Part shown: positions 58,938 through 64,000 of the stretch, in pieces
How the letters are laid out: each line of letters begins with the position of its first letter
Position numbering within the stretch: position 1 is the stretch's first letter
Source of the DNA: Xanthomonas sp.
GTDB taxonomy: Bacteria; Pseudomonadota; Gammaproteobacteria; Xanthomonadales; Xanthomonadaceae
NCBI GenBank assembly: GCA_018262705.1
Contig: JADFDQ010000008.1
Location: forward strand, 1 to 64,000
Direction of reading: 5' to 3'
DNA length: 64,000 nt
The notes under the pieces: model-generated
Told to the model about the DNA's origin: nothing
What the model saw: only the letters and a program-made list of their open reading frames with translations
Databases searched by the model: none
Program-made: the position numbers and the translations under genes

Positions 58938-59384
58938 ATGTCGAAGCGACGTCCGATTTCCGTTTTTGCCGCGATGGCGATGCTGCTGCCCGGCGCGGCC
59001 GCGTTTGCGCAGGCGGCGCCGCAGCGCGAGGTTGTTTTGCCGATCGAGAACGTGCGCTTCGATTATGCGCAGGTTCTGGCCGTGCGTCCGATCAGTCAAG
59101 TGCTGCGCACGACCAACATGGAGCGCGTTTGTCGCGACCCCGCGCACCCGGAACGGATGATTCCGGATGCGCCAGCGAATTCGTCGGCTGGCCGTTCTGG
59201 ACGTCAGCCGCAGTCGGGGATGCGCAACTGCAAAATGGCGCCGGTGGTGCGTGAGTTCCGGCGCACGATTTCCTACGAGGTCGATTACATCTACCGCGGC
59301 GCCCGCTTCCGGACCCGGATGGACCGCGATCCCGGCAACCGCCTGCGCATCCGTATATCGATCATGCCGGCGCCGCTGGATTGA
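58938..59384 (+). CDS. Exported hypothetical protein, glycine-zipper relative lacking the zipper
   Basis: A 148-residue protein with a signal peptide ([17 protein letters not shown]). [27 protein letters not shown] and the C-terminal [38 protein letters not shown] resemble the ends of the Rickettsia 17-kDa-type surface antigens, but the glycine zipper normally between them is missing. Two Cys remain. Probably periplasmic; no known function. Confidence 0.65.
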
Positions 59385-59414
59385 GGCTTGCGCGTTGCCG
59401 CCGCTCGTGAGAGC

Positions 59415-59528
59415 ATGCCCGCCGCAATGAACGCCCACTTCGCCACCCGCCACGCCGACGCCGCCCGGATCGCTTCCGGCATGACCTCGCGTGCGCGCCG
59501 ACCGGAAACGCCATTTCCAGCTGGGTAA
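59415..59528 (+). CDS. Arginine-rich leader peptide of the arg operon (putative)
   Basis: A 37-residue frame (ATG 59415, or 33 aa from ATG 59427) with five Arg codons: two early, then T-S-R-A-R-R-P at 59484-59504, in which the Arg residues are CGT, CGC, CGA. The stop TAA is at 59526. It ends 31 bases before a terminator hairpin and 104 bases before argF'. Codon spacing and position are those of a ribosome-stalling leader peptide. No homologous peptide is known to me; GC-rich DNA alone favours Arg codons, so this is a prediction. Confidence 0.5.
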
Positions 59529-59559
59529 TCCGGATCGCGTTCATGCGTCACTTTTCCGA

Positions 59560-59588
59560 AAACCCAGCCCAGCGGCTGGGTTTTTTGC
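59560..59588 (+). terminator. Attenuator-type terminator before argF'
   Basis: AACCCAGCC and GGCTGGGTT (9 bp) surround a CAGC loop, followed by TTTTTTG. It lies between the leader peptide and argF'. GCTGGGT at 59520-59526, which overlaps the leader's last sense codons and stop, can pair with ACCCAGC of the left arm as an antiterminator. The switch is inferred; the hairpin itself is clear. Confidence 0.7.
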
Positions 59589-59632
59589 GTTTCAGCCTCC
59601 CACTTTCCTTCCGTCCACATCGAACATTACTC

Positions 59633-60631
59633 ATGAAGCACTTTCTCAATACCCAGGACTGGAGCCGCGCCGACCTCGACGCATTGTTGATGCAGGCCGC
59701 CGAGTTCAAGCGCAGCAAGTTGGGCGATGCGCTGAAAGGCAAGTCCATCGCGCTGGTGTTTTTCAACCCGTCGATGCGCACCCGCACCAGTTTCGAGTTG
59801 GGCGCATTCCAACTGGGCGGCCATGCCATCGTGCTGCAACCGGGCAAGGATGCGTGGCCGATCGAATTCAACCTGGGCACGGTGATGGATGGCGACACCG
59901 AGGAGCACATCGCCGAAGTGGCGCGGGTCTTGGCGCGCTATGTGGATTTGATCGGCGTGCGCGCGTTTCCGAAGTTTGTGGATTGGCAGTACGACCGCCA
60001 GGACAGCGTGCTCAAGAGTTTCGCCAAATACGCCACGGTGCCGGTGATCAATATGGAAACGATTACCCACCCCTGCCAGGAATTGGCGCATGCGCTGGCG
60101 TTGCAAGAGCACTTTGGCAGCAGTGATTTGCGCGGCAAAAAATATGTGCTGACCTGGACCTACCACCCCAAACCGCTGAACACCGCGGTGGCCAATTCGG
60201 CGCTGACCATTGCCACGCGCATGGGGATGGATGTGACGTTGCTATGCCCCACCGAACAATATGTATTGGATGAGCGCTACATGGGCTGGGCGCGCGACAA
60301 CGTGGCCGAAAGCGGCGGCTCGCTTACCGTGAGTCACGATATTCAAAGTGCGTATGCCGATGCGGATGTGGTGTATGCCAAGAGCTGGGGCGCGCTGCCG
60401 TACTTTGGCAACTGGGCACCGGAAAAACCGATCCGCGATCAATACCGGCACTTCATCGTGGATGAAGCCAAGATGGCGCTGACCAACGATGGCGTGTTCT
60501 CGCACTGCCTGCCGCTGCGCCGCAATGTCAAAGCCACCGATGCGGTGATGGATTCGCCGCGCTGCATTGCCATCAACGAAGCCGAAAATCGCCTGCATGT
60601 GCAGAAAGCGGTGATGGCGGCGTTGGTCTAG
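59633..60631 (+). CDS. argF': N-acetylornithine carbamoyltransferase
   Basis: A 332-residue carbamoyltransferase specific for N-acetyl-L-ornithine, the enzyme that replaces OTCase in Xanthomonas. Carbamoyl-phosphate site [14 protein letters not shown]; the distinctive [26 protein letters not shown] loop contributing acetylornithine specificity; [18 protein letters not shown]; and [15 protein letters not shown]. It makes acetylcitrulline, passed on to argG only after deacetylation by the product of the gene at 62060. First gene of the arg operon, with an attenuator-like leader. ATG 59633. Confidence 0.97.
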
Positions 60632-60635
60632 CGGC

Positions 60636-60660
60636 GGGGACCGGGAACCGGGAACCGGAA
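60636..60660. repeat. Heptanucleotide array between argF' and argG
   Basis: GGGGACC GGGAACC GGGAACC GGAAC: 3.5 units starting five bases after the argF' stop. It is inverted relative to the array at 60738, with which it could pair in the transcript. Confidence 0.9.
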
Positions 60661-60716
60661 CGAGCGGATTGATTCCGCGAGATACGCATTTTTTCGCTTT
60701 GCCAGGAGTCTCCAAA

Positions 60717-61958
60717 ATGTCCCAATCCGACGCCTCTCCCGGTTCCCGGTTCCCGGTACCCGGTTCCCGCTCCAAAGACATCATCCTCGCCTTCAGCGGC
60801 GGCCTCGACACCAGTTTTTGCGTGCCCTATCTGAAAGAGCAGGGTTGGCAGGTGCACACCGTGTTTGCCGATACCGGCGGCGTCAGCGCCGAGGAGCGCG
60901 CCACCATCGAAGCGCGTGCGGCCGAACTGGACGTGGCTTCGCATCTCACCGTGGACGGCGGCCCGGCGCTTTGGCGCGACTTCGTGCGGCCCTTCTTGTG
61001 GGCCGGCGAGGGCTATCAGGGCCAGTACCCCCTGCTGGTGTCGGATCGCTATTTAATCGTGGATGCCGCGCTGGCGCGGGCGAAGGAATTGGGCACCAAT
61101 GCGATTGCACATGGCTGCACCGGCATGGGCAACGATCAGGTGCGCTTCGACCTTGCGGTCAAGTCCAGCGGCGACTATCGCATCGTGGCGCCGATCCGCG
61201 AGATCCAGAAGCAGCACACCCAGACCCGCGCCTATGAACTGGCCTATCTGCAGGAGCTTGGCTTCACCGTGCGTGCCAAGCAGATGGCCTACACCATCAA
61301 CGAAAACCTGCTGGGCGTGACCATGTCCGGAGGCGAAATCGACGCCTGGGACGCGCCGGGCGAGGGCGCCCGCGGCTGGTGTGCGCGCCGCGAACAGTGG
61401 CCGTCGGAGCCGATGGAAGTCGCCCTGCGCTTCGAGAATGGCGAGGCGGTGGCGCTGGACGGCAATGAACTTCCGGGCGATAGGATTCTTGCCAAGCTCA
61501 ATGTGATGTTCGCCCAGTACGGCGTCGGCCGCGGCATGTACACCGGCGACACCACGATTGGGCTGAAAGGCCGCATCGTGTTTGAGGCGCCGGGTTTAAT
61601 CGCACTGCTCACCGCACATCGCGCACTGGAAGAAGCGGTGCTGTCCAAACAGCAAAACCGCTTCAAGCCGGAGGTGGCGCGCAAGTGGGTGGAGTTGGTC
61701 TATGAGGGCTTCTTCCACGACCCGCTAAAAGCCGATTTGGAAGCGTTTCTGAAGTCGTCGCAAGCCACGGTCAGTGGCGAAGTCGTGCTGCGCACCAACG
61801 GCGGCCGCGTGGACGCCATCGCGGTGCGATCAAAGCACATCCTGCAATCCGGCGGCGCGACCTATGCGCAGTCGGCCGATTGGGGCGTGGAGGAAGCCGA
61901 GGGCTTCATCAAGTTGTTCGGAATGAGCAGCACGCTGTGGGCGCAGGTGAATCGCTAA
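60717..61958 (+). CDS. argG: Argininosuccinate synthase with repeat-derived N-terminal extension
   Basis: A 413-residue ATP-dependent ligase of citrulline and aspartate. PPi-loop AFSGGLDTS is at ~25-33; [33 protein letters not shown] and the C-terminal AVRSKHILQ follow. The start at ATG 60717 has AGGAG ten bases upstream. Between Met1 and Lys20 it carries about 16 residues ([12 protein letters not shown]) encoded by a heptanucleotide array that Xanthomonas relatives lack, so the repeat has entered the coding sequence. Second gene of the arg operon. Confidence 0.95.
60738..60772. repeat. Heptanucleotide array inside the start of argG
   Basis: CCCGGTT CCCGGTT CCCGGTA CCCGGTT CCCGCTC: four units plus a decayed fifth, 19 bases after the argG start codon and in frame with it. 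Because seven is not a multiple of three, change of one unit would shift the frame; only multiples of three units keep it. Confidence 0.92.
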
Positions 61959-61966
61959 CCGGCATT

Positions 61967-62043
61967 GTCTTCCCGGCGCAAGCCGGGATCCAGCCCTTCA
62001 AATGTCATTAAAAACTGGATCCCGGTTTGCGCCGGGATGACAA
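61967..62043. repeat. dRS3/REP-like palindromic doublet, copy in the arg operon
   Basis: TGTCTTCCCGGCGCAAGCCG with GGATCCAG and CTGGATCCCGGTTTGCGCCG with GGATGACA flank a 22-base spacer. It lies between argG and the deacetylase gene, ending 17 bases before its start, so it is transcribed in the operon and could modulate expression or mRNA decay of the later genes. Confidence 0.87.
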
Positions 62044-62059
62044 GCAAAAGGTAATCATC

Positions 62060-63145
62060 ATGCTTGATACCGTTCTCAACCACCTCAAAGCCCTGGTGTT
62101 GTTCGACACCCGCAACCCGCCGCGCCTGATTGGCACCGGCGGAATCTTCGACTACATCCGCGCGCAGCTTCCCGGATTCCGGATCAAGGTCGAAGACCAC
62201 GGCGACGGCGCGGTGTCGCTGCTGGCAATCCGCGGCGCGCCGCAGTGCGTGTTCAACGTGCATTTGGACACGGTGCCTTCGTCAGGCGCGTGGACGGCCG
62301 ATCCGATGAAACTGCGGGTCAGGAAAGATCGCGCGATCGGCTTGGGAGTCTGCGACATCAAGGGCGCGGCGGCCGGTCTGCTGGCCGCGGCGCAGGCGAC
62401 AAAAGGCGCTGCGGCTTTCCTGTTCAGCAGCGACGAGGAAGCCAACGATCCGCGCTGTATTTCCGCATTCCTGGGGCGTGACCACGGTTTCCATGAGGCG
62501 ATCGTCGCCGAGCCCACGCGCTGCGAAGCGGTGTTGGCGCATCGCGGGATCAGCTCGGTGCTGCTGAAATTCAAGGGCGAGGCGGGGCATGCCTCGGCCG
62601 CCAACGCGCTGCAGTCCAATGCCCTGCATCAGGCGATGCGCTGGGGCGCCAATGCGCTGGAGCTGGTCGAAGCAGAGGCGGCCAGCCGCTTTGGCGAGCT
62701 GAGCGGACTGCGTTTCAACATCGGCAAGGTCGAAGGCGGGATCAAGGCGAACGTGATCGCGCCCAGCGCCGAGGTGCGCTTCGGGTTCCGACCGCTGCCG
62801 TCGCAGGATATCGACACACTCCACAAGCGCTTTGGCGCCTGTGCGCAGACCGGCGTTCTGGATCGCTATGAAGAATCTTTCCGCGGCCCGTCGCTGCCGG
62901 CCGGCGATCCCGCCCACGCGCAGCAGCGTGCACAGGAGGCGCGCGCACTGGCGCAGTCGCTGCAGCTGCCGGTCGGTGTGGCGGTCGATTTCTGGACCGA
63001 AGCGGCGCTGTTTTCGCAGGCCGGCCTGACCACCTTCGTCTACGGGCCGGGCGATATCGCCCAGGCCCATGCCGCCGACGAATGGGTGGCGCTCGACCAG
63101 CTGCAGCGCTACACCAAATCCATTGCCCGCATCCTCGGAAACTGA
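62060..63145 (+). CDS. argE: Acetylcitrulline deacetylase (ArgE-like, M20)
   Basis: A 361-residue M20 metallohydrolase. Metal motifs: VFNVHLDTVPSSG, GLGVCDIKGAAAGLL and FLFSSDEEANDPRC; lid domain GHASAANALQSNALHQAMRW. Xanthomonadaceae use this enzyme to deacetylate N-acetylcitrulline from argF' so that argG can act, and it sits between argG and the kinase gene as in X. campestris. Bare sequence would equally fit acetylornithine deacetylase; operon context decides. Confidence 0.93.
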   Translation: MLDTVLNHLKALVLFDTRNPPRLIGTGGIFDYIRAQLPGFRIKVEDHGDGAVSLLAIRGAPQCVFNVHLDTVPSSGAWTADPMKLRVRKDRAIGLGVCDIKGAAAGLLAAAQATKGAAAFLFSSDEEANDPRCISAFLGRDHGFHEAIVAEPTRCEAVLAHRGISSVLLKFKGEAGHASAANALQSNALHQAMRWGANALELVEAEAASRFGELSGLRFNIGKVEGGIKANVIAPSAEVRFGFRPLPSQDIDTLHKRFGACAQTGVLDRYEESFRGPSLPAGDPAHAQQRAQEARALAQSLQLPVGVAVDFWTEAALFSQAGLTTFVYGPGDIAQAHAADEWVALDQLQRYTKSIARILGN

Positions 63146-63148
63146 GCC

Positions 63149-64000
63149 GTGACCCCCGTCCTCGATCCTTGCGCCGTGCACGATCCCCAGACCCGCCAGA
63201 CCATCGTGCGGTTGCTGTCCAGCATGGGCAGCGCCAAGGAAATTTCGCAGTACTTGAAGCGCTTCTCGCAGCTCGATGCCGCGCGCTTTGCCGTGGTCAA
63301 GGTCGGCGGCGCGGTGCTGCGTGATGACCTCGACGCGCTGGTGTCCTCGCTGGCCTTCCTGCAGGACGTGGGCCTGACCCCGATCGTGTTGCACGGTGCC
63401 GGTCCGCAGCTCGATGCCGAACTGTCCGCGGCCGGCATCGTCAAGCAGACCGTCGATGGGCTGCGCGCTACCTCGCCGCAGGCGCTTGCCATCGTGCGCA
63501 AGGTGTTCCATGCCCAGAACCTGAAGCTGGTGCGCGCGCTGCAGGCCGCCGACGCGCGCGCCACCTCGATCGTGTCCGGGGTCTTCGAGGCCGATTATCT
63601 GGACCGCGAGCGCTACGGTCTGGTCGGCGGCATCGAGCAGGTGCACACCGCGCCGATCATCGACAGCTTGCAGGCCGGTTCGATTCCGGTGATCGCCTCG
63701 CTCGGCGAAACCGAGGGCGGGCAGATTCTCAACGTCAACGCCGATTTTGCCGCCAACGCGCTGGTGCAGGCGCTGCAGCCCTACAAAATCGTCTTCCTCA
63801 CCGGCACCGGCGGCCTGCTCGATGCGCGCGGTCGGATCATCGACTCGATCAACCTGACCACCGAATACGAGCACCTGATGCAGCAGCCGTGGATCGACGG
63901 CGGAATGCGGGTCAAGATCGAACAGATCAAGGCGCTGCTGGACGGACTGCCGCGGGCTTCGTCGGTGTCGATCACGCGGCCGTCCGAGCTGGCCAAGGAG
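63149..64000 (+). CDS. argB: Bifunctional N-acetylglutamate kinase/synthase, 3'-truncated by window
   Basis: GTG at 63149, overlooked because it stays open to the window end (284 codons here; relatives are ~450). The amino-acid kinase domain is present: [77 protein letters not shown] and [18 protein letters not shown]. It is the Xanthomonas-type fusion in which a GNAT synthase domain follows; that part lies beyond 64000. It starts the acetylated arginine route and is the usual target of feedback inhibition. The start overlaps no upstream gene; it follows the deacetylase by three bases. Confidence 0.93.

Follow-up and report, generated by a model that had tools for sequence, protein, structure and literature searches.

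A candidate arginine attenuator with an apparently leaderless leader peptide precedes argF' in Xanthomonas and its relatives and coincides with the Rfam small RNA Xoo5

The classical his, leu, thr, and trp attenuators share a leader open reading frame (ORF) with codons for the end product, three competing hairpins, and a terminator placed before the first biosynthetic gene, and their control codons are positioned so that a stalled ribosome frees the arm of an antiterminator. The choice of fold is assumed to be made while the polymerase moves. To our knowledge, the amino acids classically listed as controlled by attenuation do not include arginine, and arginine operons are textbook targets of ArgR. 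The leader described here, upstream of the arginine operon of a Xanthomonas sp., shows the same predicted layout and the same placement of control codons as the classical systems but differs from them in the amino acid, in an ORF apparently located at the very 5′ end of the RNA with no space for a Shine-Dalgarno sequence, in arginine codons that are nearly limited to those of one isoacceptor, and in its occurrence in genomes where no ArgR was found.

The closest described leaders, as presented in the available excerpts of the respective reports, each resemble this locus in part. The orf34-speF leader of Salmonella likewise carries consecutive arginine codons in a 34-codon leader and senses arginine through ribosome pausing, but it controls an ornithine decarboxylase by way of Rho, RNase G, and translation, with no intrinsic terminator of an arginine biosynthetic operon (PMC6386406). 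In Pseudomonas aeruginosa, a leader peptide is found upstream of carA, a gene serving arginine synthesis, and attenuation has been proposed; in that system, however, pyrimidines are what attenuation is linked to, and the effect of arginine is transcriptional (PMC4997734). The uORFC-8-2 cysS motif was also identified by computation and likewise joins a leader ORF bearing tandem control codons to a terminator, but it concerns cysteine, a tRNA synthetase gene, and the Rhodobacterales (PMC8632094). Finally, the trpL leader ORF of Sinorhizobium meliloti likewise has its ATG at the 5′ end of the RNA, and the attenuated RNA has been seen as a small RNA (sRNA); it differs in responding to tryptophan, in belonging to another class, and in having an RNA and a peptide that act in trans (PMC7298713).

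The window, that is, the whole stretch of DNA analyzed, spans 64,000 nucleotides of contig JADFDQ010000008.1 from Xanthomonas sp., and all features below lie on its plus strand unless stated otherwise. The leader interval under study (59415 to 59632) immediately precedes argF', the first gene of the arg operon (59633 to 60631), encoding N-acetylornithine carbamoyltransferase (NCBIfam NF003384, 633.2 bits against a cut-off of 288). It is followed by argG for argininosuccinate synthase (60669 to 61958, ORF as listed, profile match from residue 35), argE' for acetylornithine deacetylase (62027 to 63145, ORF as listed, profile match from residue 11), and argB for acetylglutamate kinase (63149 to 64000, assigned by its NCBIfam profile), which runs off the window. 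These gene assignments are in keeping with the clustered arginine operon of X. campestris, as described in the excerpt available of PMC1865377. An in-frame ATG at 59543 lengthens argF' by 30 codons, across the terminator (ORF 59543 to 60631), and a gene caller may pick this start, leaving the leader region hidden. Directly upstream on the same strand, a 148-residue frame with a signal-peptide-like start (58938 to 59384) stops just before the leader promoter; by eye, frames with similar C-terminal ends also precede argF' elsewhere, in loci of other families (L172, L168). Within the operon, short repeats are suggested by frames listed on both strands in the argF'-argG gap (60632 to 60800, stretches of 12 and 11 residues), and the listed argG frame opens with a repeat-like tail ahead of its profile match. 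In the argG-argE' gap (61960 to 62160), the two strands carry coding of the PAQAGIQ and PAQTGIQ types, like that of repeat elements of Xanthomonas's order, and the element is probably a mobile intergenic repeat.

The original prediction had described an arginine-rich frame, a pairing arm, and a strong terminator in the interval, and all of these features are present in the sequence. Of the 33 to 37 residues it allowed for the frame, the shorter version stands: the ORF runs from the ATG at 59427 to a TAA stop at 59526 to 59528 (33 residues plus stop, 59427 to 59528), as supported by the ORF list, the starts of relatives, and synonymous variation. The 37-residue version starting at the ATG at 59415 is not supported, as relatives keep an ATG 51 to 60 nt before the core motif, which corresponds to 59427 here. 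The S-R-A-R-R cluster was found with the anticipated control codons CGT (59490 to 59492), CGC (59496 to 59498), and CGA (59499 to 59501). Downstream, GCTGGGT (59520 to 59526) overlaps the stop codon and is complementary to ACCCAGC (59562 to 59568), which forms part of the left arm of the terminator. The latter (59558 to 59586) consists of a 12-bp stem (59558 to 59569 paired with 59574 to 59585), a 4-nt loop, and a T run. We propose that this leader is, with high probability, a ribosome-mediated transcription attenuator of argF'-argG-argE'-argB that reads the supply of charged arginine tRNA; the basis is its anatomy, its conservation, coding selection, arginine specificity established by comparison, and covarying arms.

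For the comparison, 208 of 240 genomes of the order carried argF', and 117 of these were chosen to cover the families widely. Upstream DNA was too short in two of the 117, and G361 and G422 were left out of the counts for this reason. The near relatives (families f1, f12, f2, and f3) are referred to as group A and the distant families (f4 to f10) as group B. A short same-strand ORF with the S-R-A-R-R cluster lies in front of argF', and hence upstream of the biosynthetic operon, in all 73 group-A genomes selected by argF', a count that is independent of the leader. The original prediction had cautioned that arginine codons are common in GC-rich DNA; the motif exceeds chance, with 74 occurrences in 311,744 bases (both strands) for a leader present in 73 of 73 genomes. 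Once leader-selected genomes are added, S-R-A-R-R is found in 158 of 158; this number and the counts over 108 leaders include genomes found through RF02242 and loci found through the core motif (L092 to L099 and L189 to L193) and are not independent of the feature. The search fixed the first two bases of each codon, over a reach of 460 nt that was set after the leader of G022 was seen 419 nt upstream, and the constancy of these bases follows because no group-A genome lacks the motif (0 of 158).

The longer core M-T-S-R-A-R-R occurs in 90 of 91 first loci (some genomes appear twice), each with an argF' match, and the exception reads M-A-S-R-A-R-R (L017 in genome G175). The exact core pattern was detected in 112 of 398 genomes of the order, and 369 genomes drawn from the class gave four matches, all from Xanthomonas's own family; outside the order, it was found in none of 364 genomes of the class. 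In a named genome collection, at least 120 stretches carry the core, and 74 of the 80 examined sit 132 to 305 nt upstream of argF'; among the other six, three carry the peptide at the end of the available DNA and three are unrelated. Named members with the leader include Xanthomonas, Stenotrophomonas, Lysobacter, Luteimonas, Dyella, and Rhodanobacter. Codon usage in 108 thinned leaders varies for Thr (ACC 67, ACG 24, ACT 15, ACA 2), for the first Arg (CGT 55, CGC 52, CGA 1), for Ala (GCG 86, GCC 14, GCT 7, GCA 1), and for the second Arg (CGC 83, CGT 25), and in 70 nonredundant f1 leaders the start shifts by whole codons (51, 54, 57, or 60 nt before the core). Such selection at the amino acid level together with synonymous drift implies, on comparative grounds, that the leader ORF is probably translated. 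In group A the peptide is conserved even outside its Arg codons, to a degree that stalling on codons would not require; this counts against a simple attenuator and leaves room for an arrest function or for trans activity of the released RNA or peptide. We rejected the plain Arg count in near relatives as decisive evidence, with at least four Arg in eight codons in 0.29 of leaders against 0.233 of shuffles; across 92 group-A leaders, the z score of Arg (8.1) is exceeded by those of Met (21.5) and Ala (8.5), because the whole peptide is conserved. The argument is instead carried by the codon pattern, the position, and the divergent leaders.

The original prediction had missed that the interval corresponds to the Rfam family RF02242 (Xoo5), whose match (59425 to 59551) scores 61.8 bits against a curated gathering score of 50. 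According to the portion available of PMC3039613, Xoo5 was cloned from Xanthomonas oryzae as a 124-nt RNA defined by 5′ RACE and a cloned 3′ end; this is the same RNA as the leader, described there as a non-coding sRNA. Northern blots showed sizes of about 130 and 100 nt with a growth-phase change, and Xoo5 was among five sRNAs reported as likely Hfq-independent (PMC3039613, same portion). The words argF, arginine, and leader do not occur in the main text of that paper. RF02242 was detected in 227 of 296 genomes of Xanthomonadaceae (E ≤ 0.001), 141 of them over the cut-off, and gave no match at the gathering threshold in the 20 loci scanned of 43 with distant, group-B leaders. The terminated RNA is predicted at about 156 to 159 nt plus the U run in all 15 Xanthomonas genomes measured (one more is without the exact core). 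The cloned 3′ end of Xoo5 lies just before the terminator, giving an RNA (124 nt) shorter than the predicted terminated one, which speaks against the attenuator; the cloned sRNA probably derives from the short terminated transcript. The discrete, growth-phase-dependent bands and the trans activity of the terminated S. meliloti trpL leader (PMC7298713, available excerpt) would both suit the view of Rfam and Liang 2011, in which Xoo5 is a trans-acting sRNA and the neighbouring operon is incidental. We consider this very improbable given the reported likely independence from Hfq (PMC3039613), the position directly upstream of argF' in every argF'-selected group-A genome, and a conserved part that is an open frame under amino-acid-level selection, with a terminator arm that covaries with the stop-overlapping arm.

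A putative promoter precedes the leader, with a −35-like TTGCGC (59388 to 59393) and, 17 nt farther, a −10-like GAGCAT (59411 to 59416) that matches the consensus weakly. In f1, a TTG[CTA] that starts 32 to 41 nt before the leader ATG is found in 69 of 70 nonredundant leaders, compared to 5.2 expected from shuffles, and the best −10-like hexamer ends 7 to 10 nt before the ATG in 60 of 70, a count made without a control. Three f1 leaders with no ATG at the usual distance (G028, G123, and G261) were left out of the promoter counts, and in f12 the leader ATG looks, by eye, farther from the promoter. Shine-Dalgarno-like words precede 16 of the 70 f1 leaders versus 38 at argF'. When position 1 of RF02242 is taken as the X. 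oryzae RACE end (both are 124 long), the 5′ end falls 2 nt before the ATG (CTATG in L003). Since the start codon sits at the expected transcription start, the leader ORF appears to be leaderless.

Of the 42 group-B genomes whose upstream DNA was long enough, 38 have a terminator ahead of argF', itself preceded by a short, reworded Arg-cluster frame; terminator and leader were not detected in the other four (one f5 and three f9). Examples of the reworded leaders are ...VVARRLRRRIHTPGCEVL (from the AT-rich f8), ...IFPGRRARRTRRPLLAG, ...LVRRERRARRSTGAGCLFA, and ...IRRVRRTHREQRAG. All 36 nonredundant leaders with a terminator (f4 and f6 to f10) contain at least three Arg in eight codons. The mean maximum of Arg per eight codons in these 36 divergent leaders is 4.44 against 1.91 in dinucleotide shuffles with the terminator held fixed (z = 13.6; the next residue, Thr, reaches 6.2), and at least four Arg occur in 0.81 of leaders versus 0.096 of shuffles, such that codons for the end product are enriched beyond chance.

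The choice among arginine codons is also restricted. The first and second control positions encode Arg in 108 of 108 nonredundant leaders, and the third is CGA in 103 of 108, a codon that accounts for only 33 of 2,133 Arg codons in group-A argF'. Together, CGT, CGC, and CGA make up 323 of 324 Arg-cluster codons in group A against 1,823 of 2,133 in argF', the leaders being thinned by shared 8-mers and the argF' background unthinned, and 154 of 160 in group B against 81 of 120 in the available part of argF'. These three codons are assigned to tRNA-Arg(ICG) in most bacteria, according to the available excerpt of PMC3711424. Of the 108 group-A leaders, 98 have a proline next to the Arg pair, on its C-terminal side, R-R-P is present in 19 of 36 nonredundant distant leaders, and Pro after Arg may deepen a stall.

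The same proline, along with the M and T that precede S-R-A-R-R in 108 of 108 group-A leaders, would also suit a nascent-chain arrest peptide, for which the fungal arginine attenuator peptide and SpeFL are models. The ribosome would then be stopped by the peptide together with arginine or ornithine as a ligand, and the stalled ribosome would set the RNA fold. We regard this as unlikely, as group B keeps no peptide context of comparable length and it is the Arg clusters that recur, as CGG is avoided and CGA favored in the clusters, a preference among codons for which a sensor of the peptide would have no need, and as even in group A the leader of G175 has A in place of T. Reading of arginine codons by the ribosome, the preferred explanation, further calls for RNA arms that respond to the position of the ribosome.

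An intrinsic terminator was called in the window and in 186 of the 200 genomes that had sufficient upstream sequence, and the remaining 14 (10 in group A and 4 in group B) were left out. Within the stretch that follows the Arg codons, the longest complement of the terminator left arm in f1 and in f12 begins at a median of 21 nt past the first base of the last Arg codon, and in most cases its final base is also the first base of the stop codon. The f1 arms read GCTGGGT/ACCCAGC in 71 of 105 and GCTGGGT/GCCCAGC in 15, and those of f12 read GCCGGGT/ACCCGGC in 26 of 31, with the stop-overlapping arm and the terminator arm covarying between families. The arms of f4 to f10 (38 genomes) include GGCTGGGTT/AACCCAGCC (5) and GCCAGGTT/AACCTGGT (2), with a looser spacing after the last Arg codon (median 18 nt, 10th to 90th percentile 10 to 21 nt), and the f2/f3 arm has a median length of only 5 bp (9 genomes). 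At the third arm position, 98 nonredundant S-R-A-R-R leaders show T-A in 49, C-G in 27, G-C in 16, T-G in 4, and mismatches in 2; the G-C cases may be slips, because 16 of the 98 have fewer than six of seven pairs in the fixed register. Complementarity exceeds that of shuffles (P ≤ 0.05) in 142 of the 183 genomes but not in the rest, with P values that treat genomes as independent. In one locus (L184), the Arg cluster and the next arm occur twice in tandem upstream of argF' with N in between, which reflects either a partial leader duplication or an assembly artefact. The original prediction had looked to relatives for a conserved frame and arms, and both were recovered there, with codons that change synonymously, arms that covary, and reworded Arg-rich leaders in the distant families. 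Several families of the order have kept the reading frame with its Arg codons, the place of the stop, and the complementary arms, which, at the level of sequence comparison, supports its attenuator interpretation.

Fold predictions were made for defined ribosome positions. In the window, with CGA, CGC, or CGT in the A site and the left arm emerged, the free RNA is predicted to fold as an antiterminator in which 59520 to 59526 (region 2) pairs with 59562 to 59568 (region 3), extended by CGGA (59531 to 59534) with TCCG (59555 to 59558). With the ribosome at the stop, the free RNA is predicted to fold into the terminator, and without a ribosome part of region 2 would pair with region 1, a protector arm (59496 to 59513) whose predicted local partners lie within 59522 to 59539. 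Across families, when the ribosome occupies the Arg codons, upstream pairing of the left arm (at least 5 bp) is predicted in 54 of 54 f1, 25 of 25 f12, 6 of 7 f2/f3, and 31 of 34 f4 to f10 leaders, compared to shuffled rates of 0.51, 0.52, 0.65, and 0.42, respectively. The terminator is predicted with the ribosome at the stop in all 120 nonredundant leaders, and region 2 is predicted to be paired without a ribosome in 120 of 120, the latter a count without a shuffled control. On average, the folding energy improves clearly on that of shuffles in f1, f12, and f4 to f10 but hardly in f2/f3 (−14.7 versus −13.8). Sequence and predicted folds thus describe a mutually exclusive antiterminator that is freed at the control codons and covered at the stop, weakly so in f2/f3.

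One point against the attenuator is that, for the whole stalled RNA, the predicted optimum is the terminator (−26.0) and not the antiterminator (−19.3, on the shorter nascent RNA). Since the complete stalled RNA prefers the terminator, the switch must be kinetic and would be decided while the polymerase moves. The folding energy of the interval is unremarkable, with a z score of only −1.50 (11 of 200 shuffles are as stable), and overall fold stability alone therefore proves nothing. A long helix between the 5′ end of the RNA and the stretch after the stop (ATGAACGC/GCGTTCAT), predicted for the window, was considered as a family feature and rejected, with a median shuffle P of 0.34 over 63 nonredundant f1 leaders and 8 of the 63 (0.13) at or below 0.05.

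From these elements we infer how stalling, the choice of fold in the cell, and the response to arginine would be connected. RNA polymerase would start at or about 2 nt before the leader AUG, and a ribosome would load on this leaderless 5′ end. Whenever arginyl-tRNA runs short, it would stall at CGU-GCG-CGC-CGA and cover region 1, leaving region 2 (GCUGGGU) free to pair with region 3 (ACCCAGC) as it emerges; no terminator would then form, and argF'-argG-argE'-argB would be transcribed. When arginyl-tRNA is plentiful, the ribosome would reach the stop and cover region 2, allowing the terminator to form. Without a ribosome, region 1 would hold region 2, and the terminator would form too.

The RNA structure predicted at the site could also belong to a metabolite riboswitch or a protein-bound terminator, with no need for translation. 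We give this explanation the least credence of those considered: none of the 20 distant leaders scanned has an Rfam family, yet their Arg clusters persist, and a fold of RNA alone cannot explain synonymous drift with fixed amino acids. As for a protein, ArgR was found only in f11, leaving other proteins as candidates. More precisely, ArgR (TIGR01529) was detected in 8 of the 101 order genomes searched, every one from f11 and none over the curated cut-off, with no match in this Xanthomonas genome and none found in the other sampled families of the order; the same search was positive in 9 of 14 control genomes, including E. coli and B. subtilis. An ArgR regulon would therefore lack its repressor in this genome, and the remark in the original prediction that arginine operons are classically under ArgR seems inapplicable here. 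The f11 family has only distant argF' matches (E of about 2e-61 to 4e-73).

Translation-dependent attenuation is in itself a classical, known mechanism; what is new, within the literature searched, is its specificity for arginine, together with an apparently leaderless start, a bias toward the codons of one isoacceptor, and a genomic setting in which ArgR was not found. That search covered openly licensed PMC papers, and among the titles and abstract openings listed, none described an arginine attenuator of argF' or a function for Xoo5; subscription journals, in which comparative attenuator surveys have appeared too, were outside its scope. The word argF does not occur in the main text of PMC7694677 or PMC2965389. 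Taken further, and as a tentative idea that we would not favor at present, most of the order may have replaced ArgR with a leaderless sensor of a single isoacceptor that reads the charging of tRNA-Arg(ICG), and perhaps its inosine modification, with CGA as the most sensitive codon and with a second job in trans for the Xoo5 RNA or the peptide.

Overall, translation of a leader appears to govern the arginine operon in a group whose named members are Xanthomonas, Stenotrophomonas, Lysobacter, Luteimonas, Dyella, and Rhodanobacter. This offers a function for an Rfam family filed as a non-coding sRNA and serves as a warning that other short RNAs may be terminated, peptide-encoding leaders. The locus would also provide a natural system for studying the tuning of attenuation by the choice among synonymous codons and the coupling of leaderless mRNAs to transcription.
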